Positions 5,528 through 41,324 of a stretch of 41,324 bases of DNA are shown piece by piece. Position numbers and translations under genes: made by a program. Each line of letters starts with the position of its first letter. Position 1 is the stretch's first letter. Under the pieces are notes generated by a model. The model did not search any database. It was not told the DNA's origin and worked only from the letters and a program-made list of their open reading frames with translations. The DNA is from Beggiatoa sp. (GTDB lineage Bacteria > Pseudomonadota > Gammaproteobacteria > Beggiatoales > Beggiatoaceae): NCBI GenBank assembly GCA_003245895.1, contig QKBZ01000257.1, positions 1 through 41,324 of the forward strand. The letters are read 5' to 3'.

Positions 5528-5674
5528 TTTTTCTCGTTCCCACTATTTTGGTGGGAATGCGTACCGCGTCGCTCCAGCGGCGCGAGTCGTGGTGATGAGC
5601 GGAATCATATTGCTATTCGTGCCGCTGGAGCGACACGGCATGCATTCCCATCAGGACGATGGGAACGAGAAAAA
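5528..5674. repeat. Long palindromic repeat with CGTTCCCA ends and GTCGCTCCAGCGGC inner arms
   Basis: The outer arms TTTTTCTCGTTCCCA (5528-5542) and TGGGAACGAGAAAAA (5660-5674) are a perfect 15-bp inverted repeat. The inner arms GTCGCTCCAGCGGC (5568-5581) and GCCGCTGGAGCGAC (5621-5634) are a perfect 14-bp inverted repeat. Each outer arm also ends in its own small palindrome of the CCCAnnnTGGG kind. A second copy starts at 40919, and the outer ends recur at 21977-22223. It lies between convergent genes and may act as a terminator; no coding potential is seen. Confidence 0.8.
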
Positions 5675-5682
5675 ACGAAGCG

Positions 5683-6860
<1,178 letters not shown>

Positions 6861-6874
6861 AAGCTGGTGCAAAG

Positions 6875-7756
6875 TTAAGCGGCAGGTTTACGTGCGTAAA
6901 AATAAGACAGCGGTGCGCCTAAGTAGCCATAAAAGGATGACCAGTACAAGCATAAGCCGACATCTTGAAAGCCAACACTTTGCATCTCGCCCACAAAATC
7001 CCAGCCGAAGTCATTAAACACTAATGAACCATCTTCCGACATGGGATTGCCATGATACATCTCCGGTAAATAATGTGTCAGTTTGCCATTGACCAATTCC
7101 GCACGGCGCACGTTTTCATCTCGATCCGCATGAAAAGGAATGGTTAAGAATAAGTTGCCATTGGGTTTTAGTACGCGGAAAATCTCGCGCAAGCTTTGCA
7201 GTGGTTGGTTGACGTGTTCTAACACATCGTTAGAAGTAATTAAGTCAATACTGTTATCGGCAAAACTTAAAGCTTCGGCATCTTCATGTCGAATACCGTC
7301 AACCACTGCGCCGCTTTGATGTTCTGGCCCCACGTATTCACTGCCGATGCAGTGCGCGTGCGGGAATATCTGTTGTAAAGCGTGGAATAAAGGGGTGACT
7401 TGTTCCATTGCATAAATAGTTGGCGACTCACTGTGTTCTTGTTCTGCTAAGGCCGCTTGAATTTGATGCAAAATAGCACGCTGGCGATTATTAAGCTGAC
7501 AAGACTCACATAATAAACGCTCTCGCCAATTGGGTAAGCTTAAGCCGTCTTCGGTTTGCTGATAACTAGAGATTGCATCAACTTGAAATAAGGTTGGCTT
7601 TGCGCACACTTTGCAATAACCATCTAAATGATAAACCGCTTCATCTTGATGACGACGCACAATCGCAAGCTCATACTCGCGCTGTTCTCTAAATTCAGGG
7701 ACATTTTGTAAATAATCGAAAAACGCTTGACGGTTGGTAAACGTGAGGGTGTGCAT
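6875..7756 (-). CDS. Class I SAM-dependent methyltransferase with N-terminal zinc-ribbon-like segment
   Basis: A 293-residue protein. The N-terminal third has two CxxC-type pairs (CKVCAKP and LLCESCQ) that may bind zinc. The methyltransferase part has an acidic residue in GSEYVGPEH, then HEDAEALSFADNSIDLITSNDVLEHV and FRVLKPNGNLFLTIPF, a classic Methyltransf_11 motif series. The glycine-rich motif I is poorly conserved or replaced (IFPHAHCIGSEY), which is seen in glycan- or cell-surface-linked methyltransferases. The substrate is unknown. The start ATG at 7756 has AAAGG about 10 nt upstream. It is divergent from the glycosyltransferase gene, so a role in surface glycan modification is possible but inferred from position only. 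Confidence 0.8.
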   Translation of the reverse strand: MHTLTFTNRQAFFDYLQNVPEFREQREYELAIVRRHQDEAVYHLDGYCKVCAKPTLFQVDAISSYQQTEDGLSLPNWRERLLCESCQLNNRQRAILHQIQAALAEQEHSESPTIYAMEQVTPLFHALQQIFPHAHCIGSEYVGPEHQSGAVVDGIRHEDAEALSFADNSIDLITSNDVLEHVNQPLQSLREIFRVLKPNGNLFLTIPFHADRDENVRRAELVNGKLTHYLPEMYHGNPMSEDGSLVFNDFGWDFVGEMQSVGFQDVGLCLYWSSFYGYLGAPLSYFYARKPAA

Positions 7757-18434: not shown

Positions 18435-19541
18435 TTAGGGTGAATGCGTTTCTGCCAGTGTTTTATCATAAACTGCAACTTTAGGCATAGCGACTTGTTC
18501 TGATAATGCAGCACGGGCAAATCGAAAAACACTCTCATCATTCGCTGCTTGTGTAATCGCTTGCGACAACTCAGCAATTGCATCATACCAATATCCCGCT
18601 TCTGCATAGATTTGATACTGTTGATCGCCTGCTGTGTGTGCTAACTGGCTTTTTACTGAAGCTGGTAACGCTTGATAACGTAAGGTGCCGCTGGCGACCA
18701 AATCAGCAGAACGTTCCAACTCATCAGGCACAATCACAACAAACCATTCATATTCTACTTCAGGTTTTAACTGAATGTTGTAATCTGCCAGATTTAGCGC
18801 ATGCATGCCTTTAGCGTGTTGATCGCTGTCTTCAGGTAAACCGATAGTCAGCTCTAAAAGCGGTTCTACGCTTTCTGTGCTGTTGAGGGTAAATTCAAAC
18901 TCACCTGCCCACGGAGTGGAGTTATACCAATATAATGTAGGTTGGCTTTGACTGCTTAAACCGGTGCGGCGAGGGGCTAATGGTGCAAGTAAATCAGGTA
19001 ATGTAGCAGCTTCCTCAACAACAGCTACTTCACCGCGCGATACGCCTACGCCTCTGGAGACACCACGAGAAACGCCGCGTGATACGCCTCTGGAGACACC
19101 ACGAGAAACGCCGCGTGATACCCCTCTGGACACACCGCGAGAAACACCGCGCGATACGCCTCTGGAGACACCACGAGAAACGCCGCGTGATACGCCTCTG
19201 GAGACACCGCGAGAAACGCCACGCGATACGCCTCTGGAGACACCGCGAGAAACACCGCGTGATACGCCTCTGGAGACACCGCGAGAAACACCGCGTGATA
19301 CGCCTCTGGAGACACCACGAGAAACGCCACGCGACACGCCACGAGAAACTCCACGCACGGTATCATCATTGGTCAGCCCCGCTTCACGGCGACGAATGGG
19401 ATCATCTGGATTGGGAATATGATAAGTAACTTGATAAGTTGTCTCATCGCTAATGCTGGTTTGTGCATCAGTTGCCCAAGCAGTTTGACCAGCCAGTAGT
19501 AAGCAAACACATAAGGTGCTAAATAGGTAGTACTGTTTCAT
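18435..19541 (-). CDS. DUF928 protein with GVSR tandem repeats
   Basis: A 368-residue protein with a signal peptide (core LFSTLCVCLLLAG, cleavage near AWA). About residues 63-162 are 25 perfect GVSR repeats, then GV and one more GVSR. The C-terminal half matches DUF928: PTLYWYNSTPWAGEFEFTL, then LADYNIQLKPEVEYEWFVVI and WYDAIAELSQAI. DUF928 has no known biochemistry but is found next to TPS exoproteins. It is the first gene of the operon. The repeat is strongly cationic (one Arg per four residues), an unusual insertion for a periplasmic or surface protein. Repeat number is likely variable between strains. No other frame in this block looks like a real gene. Confidence 0.85.
   Translation of the reverse strand: MKQYYLFSTLCVCLLLAGQTAWATDAQTSISDETTYQVTYHIPNPDDPIRRREAGLTNDDTVRGVSRGVSRGVSRGVSRGVSRGVSRGVSRGVSRGVSRGVSRGVSRGVSRGVSRGVSRGVSRGVSRGVSRGVSRGVSRGVSRGVSRGVSRGVSRGVSRGVSRGVGVSRGEVAVVEEAATLPDLLAPLAPRRTGLSSQSQPTLYWYNSTPWAGEFEFTLNSTESVEPLLELTIGLPEDSDQHAKGMHALNLADYNIQLKPEVEYEWFVVIVPDELERSADLVASGTLRYQALPASVKSQLAHTAGDQQYQIYAEAGYWYDAIAELSQAITQAANDESVFRFARAALSEQVAMPKVAVYDKTLAETHSP
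19053..19352 (-). repeat. Coding tandem repeat: 25 GVSR units, higher-order 36-bp period
   Basis: The protein repeats every 4 residues but the DNA repeats every 36 bp (8 copies, 19051-19338). Within each 36-mer the three GVSR units are coded differently: GGC GTA TCA CGC, then GGC GTT TCT CGT, then GGT GTC TCC AGA. So Val, Ser and Arg each use a different codon in every slot. Copies differ by a few substitutions. Confidence 0.95.
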
Positions 19542-19972: not shown

Positions 19973-21970
19973 ATGGACATCCCAAATATTCAACTCCTTT
20001 CCCCACTGGTTGCCAATCAAATTGCCGCAGGTGAGGTCGTCGAACGTCCTTCTTCTGTTATCAAAGAGTTATTAGAAAATAGTTTTGATGCAGGCGCGGA
20101 TACAGTCGAAATTGATATTGAGCAAGGTGGCGCGAAGTTAATTCGAGTGCGGGATAATGGCTGCGGAATTCGAGAAGAACAATTAGCTTTAGCCTTAAGT
20201 CGGCATGCAACTAATAAAATTAAGGATTTAGACGATCTAAGTGCGGTGCATAGTTTGGGCTTTCGTGGCGAAGCCTTAGCCAGTATTGCGTCTGTGTCAC
20301 GTTTAACGCTGTACTCGCATTTTTACAGTGCTGAACATGGATTTAGTGTTGCAGTGGATCACCAAGGCCATCCGCAAGCAATAGCACCTGCCGCGCATCC
20401 TATCGGCACCACAGTAGAAATTCGTGATTTGTTTTATAACACGCCCGCACGGCGCAAGTTTTTACGCACGGAAAAAACCGAGTTTAGTCATATTAATGAA
20501 ATGGTTCGGCGCTTGGCGTTAAGCCAATTTCCGGTCAGCATTCGCTTACGACATAACCAGAAAACGGTGTTAGCGCTGCGCCCCGCATCCACTGAAGCCG
20601 AGCAACGGGAGCGGATCGCGGCTTTGTGTGGTAACAACTTTACTGAGCAAGCTTTATACATCGAAAACCAAGTGCAAACGGATGGTTTGCAGTTGTCCGG
20701 CTGGATTTCTCTGCCGACTTTTTCGCGCAGCCAAGCGGATATGCAGTATTTTTTTGTTAATGGACGCATTATCCGAGATCGCTTGATTAATCACGCGATT
20801 CGGCACGCTTATGATGACGTGTTATATCACGGGCGACATCCAGCTTATGTATTGTTTTTAAACATTGATCCCGATCAAGTGGATGTGAATGTACACCCGA
20901 CTAAGCACGAGGTGCGTTTTACTCAAAGTCGAGTCATTCACGGTTTTATCTCGCAAACTTTAAAACAGCAACTTGCTGACACGCGCCCCAGTCGCACAGT
21001 TTTAAATGCTCAATTGCCTACAGATAAAACCTCTCCTGAACCAGCAGATTACACGCCTGACGATTCAGTCTCCGCGCCAACTATCAGCAAGCCACGCCCA
21101 ACAGCATGGCAGCAAACCCAGTTGCCAATGCAACCTGCTAAGCCCAAGCCGCAGCAAGTGCAGGAATCATTACAGCACTATCAAGCCTTATGGCAATCTT
21201 TGCCCTCAGCGACAACAACACGTCCAGCGGTTGACGTTCAAACTGAGGAAAAACCTGCGGCAGCCGTGGCAAAGGCAAAAACGGAAGTTACTCCTGCTCC
21301 ACCACCGCCAGCACCAGCCCCTGTTTCCAAAAATATACCTACGCCTAAACCCGCAGCGTCTCCCATACCTGAACAACCAGAGACAGTACCACCGTTAGGC
21401 TATGCTCTAGGTCAATTACACGGCGTGTTTATTTTGGCGGAAAATGCCCAAGGTCTAATCATCGTCGATATGCACGCGGCACACGAGCGCATTACTTACG
21501 AACGCATGAAAACGGCATGGGACGGTGAAGGCTTAAAAACACAGCAATTATTAATGCCGGTTTCTGTCGCAGTTTCAGAAGGAGAAGCCGAGTTAGCCGA
21601 GCAGCATCAAGCCTTATTCCCCAGCTTAGGGCTAGAAGTACGCCGCACAGGGCCTGCGAGTCTTACTGTGACCCAAGTACCTGCCTTGTTACAAAACGCT
21701 GATGTGGCGGACTTGGTGCGAGATGTGTTAGCGGATTTAAAACGCTATGGTATGAGTGAGCGAGTGCAAAATCATATTGCTGCTTTGCTAGGCACAATGG
21801 CGTGTCATCATTCTGTGCGCGCTAATCGACAACTTACGGTGTCAGAAATGAATGCTTTGTTGCGCGATATGGAAGCGGTGGAACGTAGCAACCAATGTAA
21901 TCACGGGCGGCCTACATGGGTGCAGTTGAATTTAAAAATGTTAGATGGTTTGTTTATGCGCGGGCAATAA
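19973..21970 (+). CDS. mutL: DNA mismatch repair protein MutL, endonuclease type
   Basis: A 665-residue protein that couples MutS mismatch recognition to strand removal. The GHKL ATPase has [19 protein letters not shown] and [10 protein letters not shown], and ends with [15 protein letters not shown] Pro/Gln/Ala-rich linker (about 340-475) precedes the dimerisation domain. The latter has the nicking-enzyme motif [12 protein letters not shown] (D499-E510), MACHHSVRA and CNHGRPTW, so this MutL should be a metal-dependent nickase as in organisms without MutH. The start ATG 19973 gives the usual N terminus [20 protein letters not shown]. Its usual neighbours (miaA, hfq, amiB) are absent. A repeat element lies directly downstream. 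Confidence 0.96.
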
Positions 21971-21976
21971 CATTGC

Positions 21977-22223
21977 TTCTCGTTCCCATCGTCCCGAACA
22001 CTGCCATTAAGTTAAGCGTGTTTGTAGGGTGGAATAGGCGTAAGCCGTATTCCACCATGCGGTTTATAACCTGTTTTTGCTCAGCTTTTTTGCAGAAGTC
22101 TATGGTGGAATACGCTGCGCTATTCCACCCTACAACGACAACGGAATACGCTGCGCTATTCCACCCTACAACGACAACGCTTGCTTAACTTAATGGTAGT
22201 GATCGTCCCGATGGGAACGAGAA
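21977..22223. mobile_element. Nested MITE-like element inserted into a palindromic repeat, with 10-bp direct repeats
   Basis: The outer palindrome ends are TTCTCGTTCCCATCGTCCCG (from 21977) and GATGGGAACGAGAA (to 22223). It is interrupted by 21999-22201, whose ends CACTGCCATTAAGTTAAGC and (inverted) CACTACCATTAAGTTAAGC are 18/19 identical. ATCGTCCCGA occurs on both sides (21988-21997 and 22202-22211), a perfect 10-bp target-site duplication. Inside is a third inverted pair, GTAGGGTGGAATAGGCG (22024-22056) and the reverse copy (22104-22133). No transposase is encoded, so movement would be in trans. Confidence 0.88.
22107..22178 (+). repeat. Exact 36-bp tandem duplication inside the inserted element
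   Basis: 22107-22142 and 22143-22178 are identical, each beginning GGAATACGCTGCGCTATTCC and ending CGACAAC. The right-hand palindrome of the inner pair has thus been doubled, probably by slippage. Confidence 0.9.
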
Positions 22224-22263: not shown

Positions 22264-23715
22264 TCAATCTTCCTGCTCAGCCGCCACCAACCGCTGTGTT
22301 TGCCATTTACTACTCAAATTAGGCCAAATATTCAGCGTTAACACCACCAAAACCGCTAACACCAACATCACTAAACAGCCTTCAAAACTGCTGCTTAACT
22401 GATGAGCTAGCAGTTCTTTGCCTTGTAATAAAGGCGTACTCGCTGCGGCGAAAATTACTACCAATATACTTAAGCCTAAACTTGCCCCTAACTGATGTGC
22501 CACGTTAACCAAACCAGAAGCCGCACCTGCATCTTTATGTGCCACACCAGACACAGCAGCGACAGTTAAAGGAGCTAAGGCCGCACCATTGCCAAAACCA
22601 ATCAAAATCATCGGCCAGAAAATGCCGCTGAAATAGTCGGTATAAGCATTAATTTGTGTCAGGCCATACATACCGAACACCATGCAGACTAAGGCTAACA
22701 ACAACACACCACTATTGCCTAAACTGCGGCTTAATTTCGGCACTAAGGTCGATGCAATGAGCGTTGGAATAGTCACAGGTAAAAAGGCAGCACCTGCTTC
22801 CAATGGGCTAAACCCTAACACGCCTTGTAAAAATTGCGTGGCGAAGAAAAAGAAGCTGACCATTGTACCTAAGAACAACATACGGCCTAAATAACCACCT
22901 ACCCGCTCCCGACTGGCAAATAAGCGTAACGGCAGCAAAGGCTGTGGCGCACGGGCTTCTTGCAGAATAAACAACGTGATAAATACCAAGCCAATGGCAA
23001 CCATGCTAAACGTCAGCATATTGTGCCAACCATGACTGGCTGAATGCTCAATGCCAAAAACTAGTGCAGTCATGCCAACAGTTGAGGTAAACGCGCCTAA
23101 TAAATCAAATTTGCCAGAGTGTTTCTCCGTTTCGACTAATATTTTTTGTGCCGCAAATAGCAACACTAAACCAATCGGGATATTAATAAAAAAGCCCATT
23201 CTCCACGACAACCATGCGGTGAAAAAGCCGCCGATGACTAACCCAAGGCTAGAAGAAATACCAATCACGGCTGCGTAATAAGCCAGCGCACGGATACGCG
23301 CTTGGCCTTCAGGAAAATGGGTGGATAATAAAGCTAAGGTAGACGGGGCTAAAATTGCCGCACCGATACCTTGTAAAGCGCGGGCGATTAATAACCATTC
23401 TGGTGTTTGCGCCAATCCGACAATTAAAGAAGCAAAAGTGAATAAGGCAAGACCAATTAAAAACATACGTTTACGCCCTAGCAAATCGCCAGCGCGTGCG
23501 CCTAATAACAATAAACCGCCAAAACTCAATGTATAAGCATTTTGTACCCAAGATAAACCAGTATGGGAAAAGCCTAGCGTTTGATGAATTTCAGGTAAGG
23601 CTGTGATAACAATAAAAATATCAAGGACAATAATAAAATAAGTCGTCAGGATGATAAGCAGTATTGCAGTATTCTTCGTGTGTGAATCATTAGGTATATT
23701 TTCTGTCATAAACAT
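22264..23715 (-). CDS. MFS drug:H+ antiporter, DHA2 (EmrB/QacA) type
   Basis: A 483-residue inner-membrane protein of about 14 hydrophobic segments, the DHA2 layout. The family signature LDIFIVITALPEIHQTL lies in the first membrane helix, and GARAGDLLGRKRMFLIG (loop 2-3) and LLIARALQGIGAAILAPSTLALL (helix 4 and beyond) follow. It probably exports toxic organic compounds using the proton gradient; the substrate cannot be told. Start chosen at ATG 23715 (MFMTEN) with GTGGG close upstream; ATG 23709 is nearly as good. The frame is open to 23838, but the extra residues are polar and unlike the family. No linked TetR regulator or EmrA-type adaptor is present. Confidence 0.88.
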   Translation of the reverse strand: MFMTENIPNDSHTKNTAILLIILTTYFIIVLDIFIVITALPEIHQTLGFSHTGLSWVQNAYTLSFGGLLLLGARAGDLLGRKRMFLIGLALFTFASLIVGLAQTPEWLLIARALQGIGAAILAPSTLALLSTHFPEGQARIRALAYYAAVIGISSSLGLVIGGFFTAWLSWRMGFFINIPIGLVLLFAAQKILVETEKHSGKFDLLGAFTSTVGMTALVFGIEHSASHGWHNMLTFSMVAIGLVFITLFILQEARAPQPLLPLRLFASRERVGGYLGRMLFLGTMVSFFFFATQFLQGVLGFSPLEAGAAFLPVTIPTLIASTLVPKLSRSLGNSGVLLLALVCMVFGMYGLTQINAYTDYFSGIFWPMILIGFGNGAALAPLTVAAVSGVAHKDAGAASGLVNVAHQLGASLGLSILVVIFAAASTPLLQGKELLAHQLSSSFEGCLVMLVLAVLVVLTLNIWPNLSSKWQTQRLVAAEQED

Positions 23716-23938
23716 AAACCCACGCCCACCACACGATGTGAGCAACGATATGTCAGTTTCATTTTTAACCTCTAGCGGCTTGCAAAGGGAACAAATAGTC
23801 TGAAAAACAGATTGTCTATCATTAAAAAAACATATCAAATAAAATTAATTCTGATTAGAGGGATAATTTGCTAGGGGTTATGAATATTGCTCATAAATAG
23901 TTTGGTGAGAACAGGCTATAGTTGTATTCCGAGGTATT

Positions 23939-40918: not shown

Positions 40919-41048
40919 TTTCTCGTTCCCATCGTCCCGATGGGAATGCATACTGTGTCGCTCCAGCGGCACGTTTAGTTGCATAAGCTGTCGTTGGAAC
41001 CTGATTCGCGCCGCTGGAGCGACGCGGCAGGCATTCCCACCAAGATGG
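40919..41048. repeat. Second copy of the CGTTCCCA palindromic repeat, right arm interrupted
   Basis: TTCTCGTTCCCATCGTCCCG near 40919 opens the copy; GTCGCTCCAGCGGC (40957-40970) and GCCGCTGGAGCGAC (41010-41023) are its inner arms, identical to those at 5568-5634. The right outer arm runs CATTCCCACCAAGATGGT and should continue GGGAACGAGAA, but a CACTACC motif starts there instead. Confidence 0.8.
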
Positions 41049-41049
41049 T

Positions 41050-41214
41050 CACTACCATTAAGTTAAAGACATGCACGCTTGTAGGGTGTGCGAAATGCCG
41101 CCACGGAGTTTGCGTGTCGCAATGCACTTGCTCGGCATTTTGCGCACGCGGAGAAGTTCTAACATCATGCAGACTTCTCCGCGTTCGCACCGCAAAAAGA
41201 CGCGGCGCAAACCC
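41050..41214. mobile_element. Left part of a second CACTRCC element carrying GTAGG palindromes
   Basis: CACTACCATTAAGTTAA (41050-41066) is followed by GTAGGGTGTGCGAAATGCCG (41081-41100), inverted as CGGCATTTTGCGCACGC near 41132-41148, and then an inverted TTTGCGCCGCG repeat (41172-41214). No inverted CACTRCC end is found before the window ends, so the right border lies outside or is lost. Confidence 0.65.
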
Positions 41215-41324
41215 TTGTATCTTATAAGCATTCATGATTAGCTACCATGAATAGGAAATCAGAGAGGCTGAGCAAACCCTGAGACCATCGAGTCTGTGAC
41301 GTAGATAAGCCACTGAGTTTCCAT

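Follow-up and report, generated by a model that had tools for sequence, protein, structure and literature searches.

A 203-bp miniature element with IS4-type ends lies nested in a REP-type palindrome and carries a REP-like core in a Beggiatoa genome

Insertion sequences (ISs) of the IS4 subgroup have been described as 1400–1650 bp long, with a single ORF containing YREK and DDE motifs, ends of the form -AATR--------WTW---- and target duplications of 10–13 bp (PMC2266710). ISs that target REP sequences are likewise on record, including ISRm22 (IS4 family), whose insertions into Sinorhizobium REPs generate 6-bp duplications (Tobes and Pareja 2006, PMC1525189). REP hairpins themselves occur as GTAG-tagged dimers and REPINs (PMC3116915; PMC3733652), and QMITE2 of Coxiella burnetii is a MITE containing a REP that serves as the target of IS1111 (PMC10969869). 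For Candidatus Thiomargarita nelsonii Bud S10, Flood et al. 2016 reported a MITE in hupL with a 10-bp duplication and no parental IS in ISfinder, noted a copy within a YhgA-like ORF and suggested a PD-(D/E)XK element as the source (PMC4853749).

Here we analyze a nested insertion in a 41,324-nt stretch of Beggiatoa sp. DNA (the window, contig C342) from a 4.92-Mb genome assembly of 451 contigs (99.46% complete). The middle of its three layers is very probably a MITE of the IS4 subgroup of the IS4 family, inserted with an 11-bp duplication into the loop of a REP-type repeat and holding a REP-type interior. The element is ordinary in kind (a MITE, an IS4 relationship, a REP target); the new parts are the assignment of an IS4-type parent to this MITE family, an 11-bp palindromic target rule and, most surprisingly, hairpin cargo that changes between constant ends.

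A nested element between mutL and an MFS transporter gene

The host stretch (21977–22223) is intergenic, lying between mutL (+ strand, ending at 21970) and a convergent MFS transporter gene (− strand, 22264–23838), both named from their translations. A preliminary description had recognized three nested inverted-repeat layers here, the middle one MITE-like and flanked by a 10-bp target duplication, and all three were recovered at the positions listed in Table 1. The middle layer ends in CACTRCCATTAAGTTAAGC, its left and right copies differing once (R = G or A), and the inner pair consists of TTGTAGGGTGGAATAG at 22022–22037 with inverted copies at 22120–22135 and 22156–22171. The 10-bp direct repeat ATCGTCCCGA is exact (21988–21997 and 22202–22211), but the length of the duplication had to be revised: because sibling copies carry exact 11-bp repeats, it is 11 bp, ATCGTCCCGA followed by A or T, identical at 10 of 11 positions with the substitution adjoining the left end. 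Removal of the element and one duplication yields, as the same description had claimed, a complete palindrome, TTCTCGTTCCCATCG-TCC-CGATGGGAACGAGAA, with perfect 15-bp arms and a 3-base loop (restored site TTCTCGTTCCCATCGTCCCGATGGGAACGAGAA); paralogous empty copies of this outer palindrome exist in the genome, one of them in the window. The end motif is not there by chance, occurring four times in the window at ≤3 mismatches against 0.01 expected, and the single-stranded 247-nt stretch folds at z = −14.3. Elsewhere in the window, a 368-aa ORF (18435–19541, − strand) is secreted-looking and contains a long GVSR tandem repeat (~25 units), with alternative frames open across the repeat.

Table 1 Features of the nested locus and of related repeats in the window
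Feature	Coordinates	Strand	Basis
Left arm of outer palindrome TTCTCGTTCCC, REP-like, CGTTCCCA family	21977..21987	+	Family census in genome
Left target site duplication ATCGTCCCGAA, 11 bp	21988..21998	+	Length fixed by sibling copies
Complete middle-layer element: 203-bp non-coding MITE, IS4-type ends	21999..22201	.	97–99% identical siblings elsewhere in genome
Left terminal inverted repeat CACTGCCATTAAGTTAAGC	21999..22017	+	Equals left end of full IS4-family IS in L077
Inner core, REPIN-like: two inverted GTAG-tagged REP hairpins TTGTAGGGTGGAATAG ... CTATTCCACCCTACAA	22022..22171	.	Core also solo elsewhere
Private tandem duplication in core, 36-bp unit (22107–22142, 22143–22178)	22107..22178	+	Not in siblings L234, L220, L196
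Right terminal inverted repeat CACTACCATTAAGTTAAGC	22183..22201	-	Sequence inspection
Right target site duplication ATCGTCCCGAT, 11 bp	22202..22212	+	Sequence inspection
Right arm of outer palindrome GGGAACGAGAA	22213..22223	+	Sequence inspection
Paralogous empty site: uninterrupted palindrome copy TTCTCGTTCCCATCGTCCCGATGGGAATGC	40920..40949	+	
Outer-layer repeat, dimer form: pair of CGTTCCCA palindromes in inverted orientation about CGCTCCAGCGGC hairpins	5531..5671	.	
Related element: left end, different core TGTAGGTCGGATAAGGC, decayed right end	6736..6880	+	
Related element: left end CACTACCATTAAGTTAAAG abutting half REP TTCCCACCAAGATGGT; right boundary approximate	41050..41220	+	

Copies of the element were counted by a whole-genome pattern search and in an 842-kb sample of the same genome enriched for element-bearing contigs. 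The former returned 349 end matches at ≤3 mismatches, compared with 5 for the reversed pattern, and 154 exact matches to CACTRCCATTAAGTTAAG; in the latter, 49 pairs of ends were recognized, with 158 bp the commonest length. Ends left unpaired (contig ends, decay) number 94. Among the 49 pairs, exact duplications were of 11 bp in eight cases and 13 bp in one, with none at 7–10, 12 or 14 bp, and 20 pairs have 11-bp duplications when ≤2 mismatches are allowed. The other 29 are missing a clean duplication, partly through mispairing and partly because their flanks look recombined. At L206 (3765–3922) and similar copies in this genome, both flanks are REP-derived and the right one resembles the reverse complement of the expected left one, which suggests recombination or inversion between copies.

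Three siblings (L234, L220 and L196) are 97–99% identical to the window element apart from the 36-bp tandem duplication, which is private to the window copy and accounts for its 203 bp as against ~167 bp in these siblings. Since such near-identical copies sit in different flanks, the window element is a member of a mobile family active not long ago. The features expected of a MITE are thus found together: a short (203 bp) unit with 19-bp terminal inverted repeats and no convincing ORF, a duplication (10/11 here, exact in siblings), dispersed copies and, via other genomes (L077, L155/L245), none having been found in its own, ends in common with an autonomous element.

These counts also bear on what the preliminary description had proposed. 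The past transposition of a non-coding unit of about 200 bp is upheld by the element, its dispersed siblings and their own 11-bp duplications elsewhere, and the MITE-like character of the middle layer is borne out and can be specified as IS4-type, the outer and inner layers being REP-type repeats. Further copies with the same ends do exist, as had been anticipated, with duplications of 11 rather than 10 bp, and neither of the outcomes named as telling against transposition (the same flanks around all copies, or other CACTRCC copies lacking direct repeats) was observed. An origin of the three layers as one complex palindrome, by local duplication or replication slippage without any insertion, draws on the fact that the entire stretch forms a single long inverted repeat that is almost perfect, and that palindromes are slippage-prone. 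The element nevertheless recurs at many loci, in varying flanks and with separate 11-bp duplications, the layers occur separately, and the ends are conserved across genera while the cores are not; because dispersed copies carry different duplications, slippage is already refuted, and we give it practically no credence.

Likely IS4-family parents in other genomes and the hupL MITE

Full-length ISs with the same ends occur in relatives. A Crenothrix polyspora MAG contains a 1400-bp IS (L077, 3651–5050) with a 432-codon open frame, whose transposase matches NF033592 (IS4 family, E = 1.5e-48) and PF01609; this IS is flanked on both sides by the duplication ACGCTCTGCGT and lies inside a CGTTCCC...GGGAATG palindrome, of the window's palindrome family. 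In a genome of the window's bacterial family, a 1360-bp IS (L155/L245) has exact ends and encodes an intact transposase of 427 aa, which shares 51% identity with the L077 enzyme. The NF033592 scores of 165.6 and 142.5 bits (cut-off 115) assign family, not subgroup. For the subgroup, the motifs D(60–110)D(100–150)E and Y(2)R(3)E(6)K were scored as present: L077 has a complete YREK (YGLRWGIETFYGVIK) and DDE spacers of 80/108, and L245 a complete YREK (YYLRWGIETFYGFLK) and spacers of 79/95, the second slightly short of 100. The duplication is 11 bp, and the ends, CA(A/C)TG...TTA, fit the subgroup consensus, from which the C variant deviates in a single base. These ISs therefore resemble the IS4 subgroup (PMC2266710) in duplication range, ends, YREK/DDE motifs and single ORF but, at 1360–1400 bp, lie at or below its quoted length range, and the window element differs further in having no transposase of its own.

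A transposase gene flanked by CACTRCC ends, which it had been proposed to look for, is thus present in other genomes and was not detected in the source genome. There, neither the L077 nor the L245 transposase query found a match (relatives of L077 were found in 22 of 43 family genomes), so the genome's own copies look like orphan MITEs, or the parent was lost in assembly gaps; in a 451-contig assembly, an IS present in several copies could collapse at contig breaks and escape detection. The autonomous copy has presumably been lost from this genome. A search of the source genome for PF13006 (N-terminal IS4 domain) found none, a result that says little alone because the L077 and L245 transposases are unmatched by it as well, and six PF01609 hits were rejected as parents, having no CACTRCC ends. 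The source genome is not alone in its load of orphan MITEs, since three others of the same family (G022, G007 and G036) hold 53, 28 and 35 end copies and no detectable transposase of the L077/L245 type. Apparent passenger transposons in L085, L057 and L090 (GNAT toxin-antitoxin-like, TolC-like and PIN-domain ORFs) were dismissed as mainly genes between MITE copies or ends. Two near-identical 154-bp MITEs with REP flanks enclose a GNAT-toxin/antitoxin-like gene pair at L085 (2562–4053, Methylomonas lenta), an arrangement that could be a composite mobile unit. No paper on a mobile element came up in literature searches with the end sequence.

The hupL MITE could be re-read in genome G016: a primer used for PCR by Flood et al. 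2016 matches its contig C175 at 2605–2624, the published position, so this genome is that of Thiomargarita nelsonii Bud S10 or a near-identical one. The element, reported at 1357–1561, reads actgtttggat-CAATGCCATTAAGTTAAGG ... CTTAACTTAATGGCATTG-actgtttggat; its ends are CAATGCCATTAAGTTAAG, and the target duplication, 11 bp long, is ACTGTTTGGAT. The element is related to that of the window, which it resembles in its near-identical ends (the window's being CACTGCCATTAAGTTAAG), its length of ~200 bp, its 11-bp duplication, its palindromic core (with GTAGGGTGGG) and its abundance (matches on 260 of 439 contigs), and from which it differs in having another core and in being inserted in a gene, not a REP. 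The same genome contains 34 matches to IS4 transposase, among them, at L246 (608–2502), an element with the same ends, the duplication ATGTGATAGAGT and an interrupted IS4-family transposase frame, which supports an IS4-type parent for the hupL MITE. Derivation of hupL-type MITEs from a PD-(D/E)XK (YhgA-like) element was proposed on a copy in a YhgA-like ORF and the missing ISfinder parent (PMC4853749); against it stand the re-read ends and 11-bp duplication together with the IS4-family transposase between the same ends in that very genome, and we consider it highly improbable.

Palindromic targets and the outer REP-like layer

Judging by these sequence features, a DDE cut-and-paste transposase acting in trans would bind the CAMTRCCATTAAGTTAAG ends, and staggered 11-bp cleavage at the center of a palindromic target would insert the element; the target here was the loop of the REP-type repeat between mutL and the MFS gene, and the interior is a second REP-type unit (the GTAG-tagged inverted dimer) rather than transposase-derived. 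Across 62 distinct insertions (≤2 mismatches in the duplication), the target is the palindrome CCC-A-N9-T-GGG, with a C-rich left flank, a G-rich right flank, A at duplication position 1 (49/62) and T at position 11. About the duplication center, 8.3 of 20 positions are paired, compared with ~5 at shifted centers (n = 62). CGTTCCC-type palindromes host 28 of the 62 sites, with 9.0 of 12 positions paired, and the 34 non-REP targets show weaker symmetry (4.1 versus 2.8 of 12). In the own-genome sample, REP arms flank 13 of 49 elements on both sides and 22 of 49 on at least one, although the 46 intact palindromes occupy well under 1% of the 842 kb.

The window element is comparable to ISRm22 (PMC1525189) as an IS4-family element at a REP symmetry axis, and differs from it in its 11-bp duplication, in the REP family used and in that MITEs as well as full ISs are involved. 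REP targeting may well amount to a mere sequence preference, CCC-A-N9-T-GGG fitting REP loops, with no recognition of a hairpin or cruciform; this alternative concerns the target step only and is compatible with our main explanation. It accords with the A/T duplication edges and weak symmetry retained at the 34 sites outside CGTTCCC repeats, and less well with the strongly palindromic centers of the REP class, whose loop sequences vary.

The outer layer is a REP-like family. Its intact TTCCCA(3–13)TGGGAA palindromes number 46 in the 842 kb against 0.4 in shuffles, and CGTTCCCA palindromes sometimes pair with CGCTCCAGCGGC-type hairpins (Table 1); set against REP/REPIN features, the family has these 46 copies, one RAYT adjacency only and no GTAG tag. 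The genome's sole RAYT gene (NF047646, above cut-off) has a palindrome copy 8 bp past its stop, with the loop of the window's restored site. This adjacency is suggestive of a link between RAYT and outer palindrome, not proof of it; the other 42 family genomes contain no close relative of this RAYT (E ≤ 1e-40), and the link therefore rests on a single adjacency.

Changing hairpin cargo between constant ends

The inner core, TGTAGGGTGGAATA...TATTCCACCCTACA, an inverted dimer with GTAG tags, is also dispersed on its own, in full-length solo copies with unique flanks (e.g., L209:4222, L232:3874, L233:3741 and L235:151). No TGTAGG repeats lie within ~1.5 kb of the genome's Y1 transposase loci, and the cognate RAYT of the core may have been lost; because none was recognized, we call the core REP-like and do not file it as a REPIN. 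The locus shares with REPINs and GTAG REP dimers (PMC3116915; PMC3733652) this GTAG-tagged inverted dimer and an outer palindrome with a copy just behind a RAYT gene, but in the present case a DDE-type element carries the dimer as cargo, and no RAYT could be tied to the inner family.

Three different core families occur between the same ends in the source genome. We compared 119 elements sharing these 18-bp ends, drawn from many genera (Methylococcales, Beggiatoaceae/Thiotrichales, Legionellales and others): their cores fall into ~46 clusters without detectable similarity, mostly hairpins, and 39 of 46 core representatives have folds much more stable than those of mononucleotide shuffles (z < −3, median −7.0). 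An Rfam search gave no match. Internal deletion is the standard origin of MITEs, which, together with ends and a duplication length common to full ISs, counts for the window element being a deletion derivative whose hairpin core is left-over IS sequence. Yet comparison of the 119 cores with five end-bounded, transposase-bearing elements (1360–1895 bp) found interiors unshared beyond the ends except in nested or small-repeat cases (L037 and L054 with L176, where an IS seems to lie inside a MITE, and small repeats in L098 and L103), the window's core occurs solo at unique sites, and ~46 unrelated cores share the same ends. We regard a deletion origin as improbable and favor a REP-type interior not derived from the parent IS.

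Several elements of this family are themselves nested. At L176 (1306–2960, G014), a ~1428-bp IS copy (1383–2810, interrupted transposase) lies in a 215-bp MITE of the same family; L037 had been considered a deletion derivative in relation to L176, a reading rejected on the coordinates, which describe an IS inside a MITE (1655 − 1428 = 227, or ~215 plus a duplication). At L142, a 166-bp element in a Chromatiaceae MAG, the core is itself a CGTTCCCACGCTCCGCGTGGGAATGC repeat, the usual target family turned cargo. In the source genome, an ATGGGT-core element with an exact 11-bp duplication, CGTCACTGGCT, lies inside the apparent CGGATAA core of another element (L025, 1353–1519).

QMITE2 is likewise a MITE containing a REP that is an IS target, but IS1111 is another IS, and core exchange under constant ends was not found in the passages of that review consulted (PMC10969869). 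Here, cores may have entered by REPIN insertion between minimal ends, by recombination or by template switching at palindromes. Tentatively, IS4-type ends could be a general carrier of unrelated REP/REPIN dyads that prefers palindrome loops, so that DDE IS4 and HUH RAYT/REPIN systems exchange cargo and targets; the transposase would then possibly favor hairpin or cruciform DNA as both target and interior.

The MITE family in question abounds in sulfur-oxidizing and methane-oxidizing bacteria and was published, in the giant bacterium Thiomargarita nelsonii, without a parent; a likely IS4-type parent is now identified for it. The target rule (palindromes of the form CCC-A-N9-T-GGG, with 11 bp duplicated at their axis) is explicit and testable, and the pattern of constant ends and changing hairpins makes the purpose of a MITE's interior experimentally approachable. 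At this locus, transposition has layered small palindromic repeats of two different origins, and some of the REP-like sequence in these genomes may therefore owe its spread to a DDE transposase.
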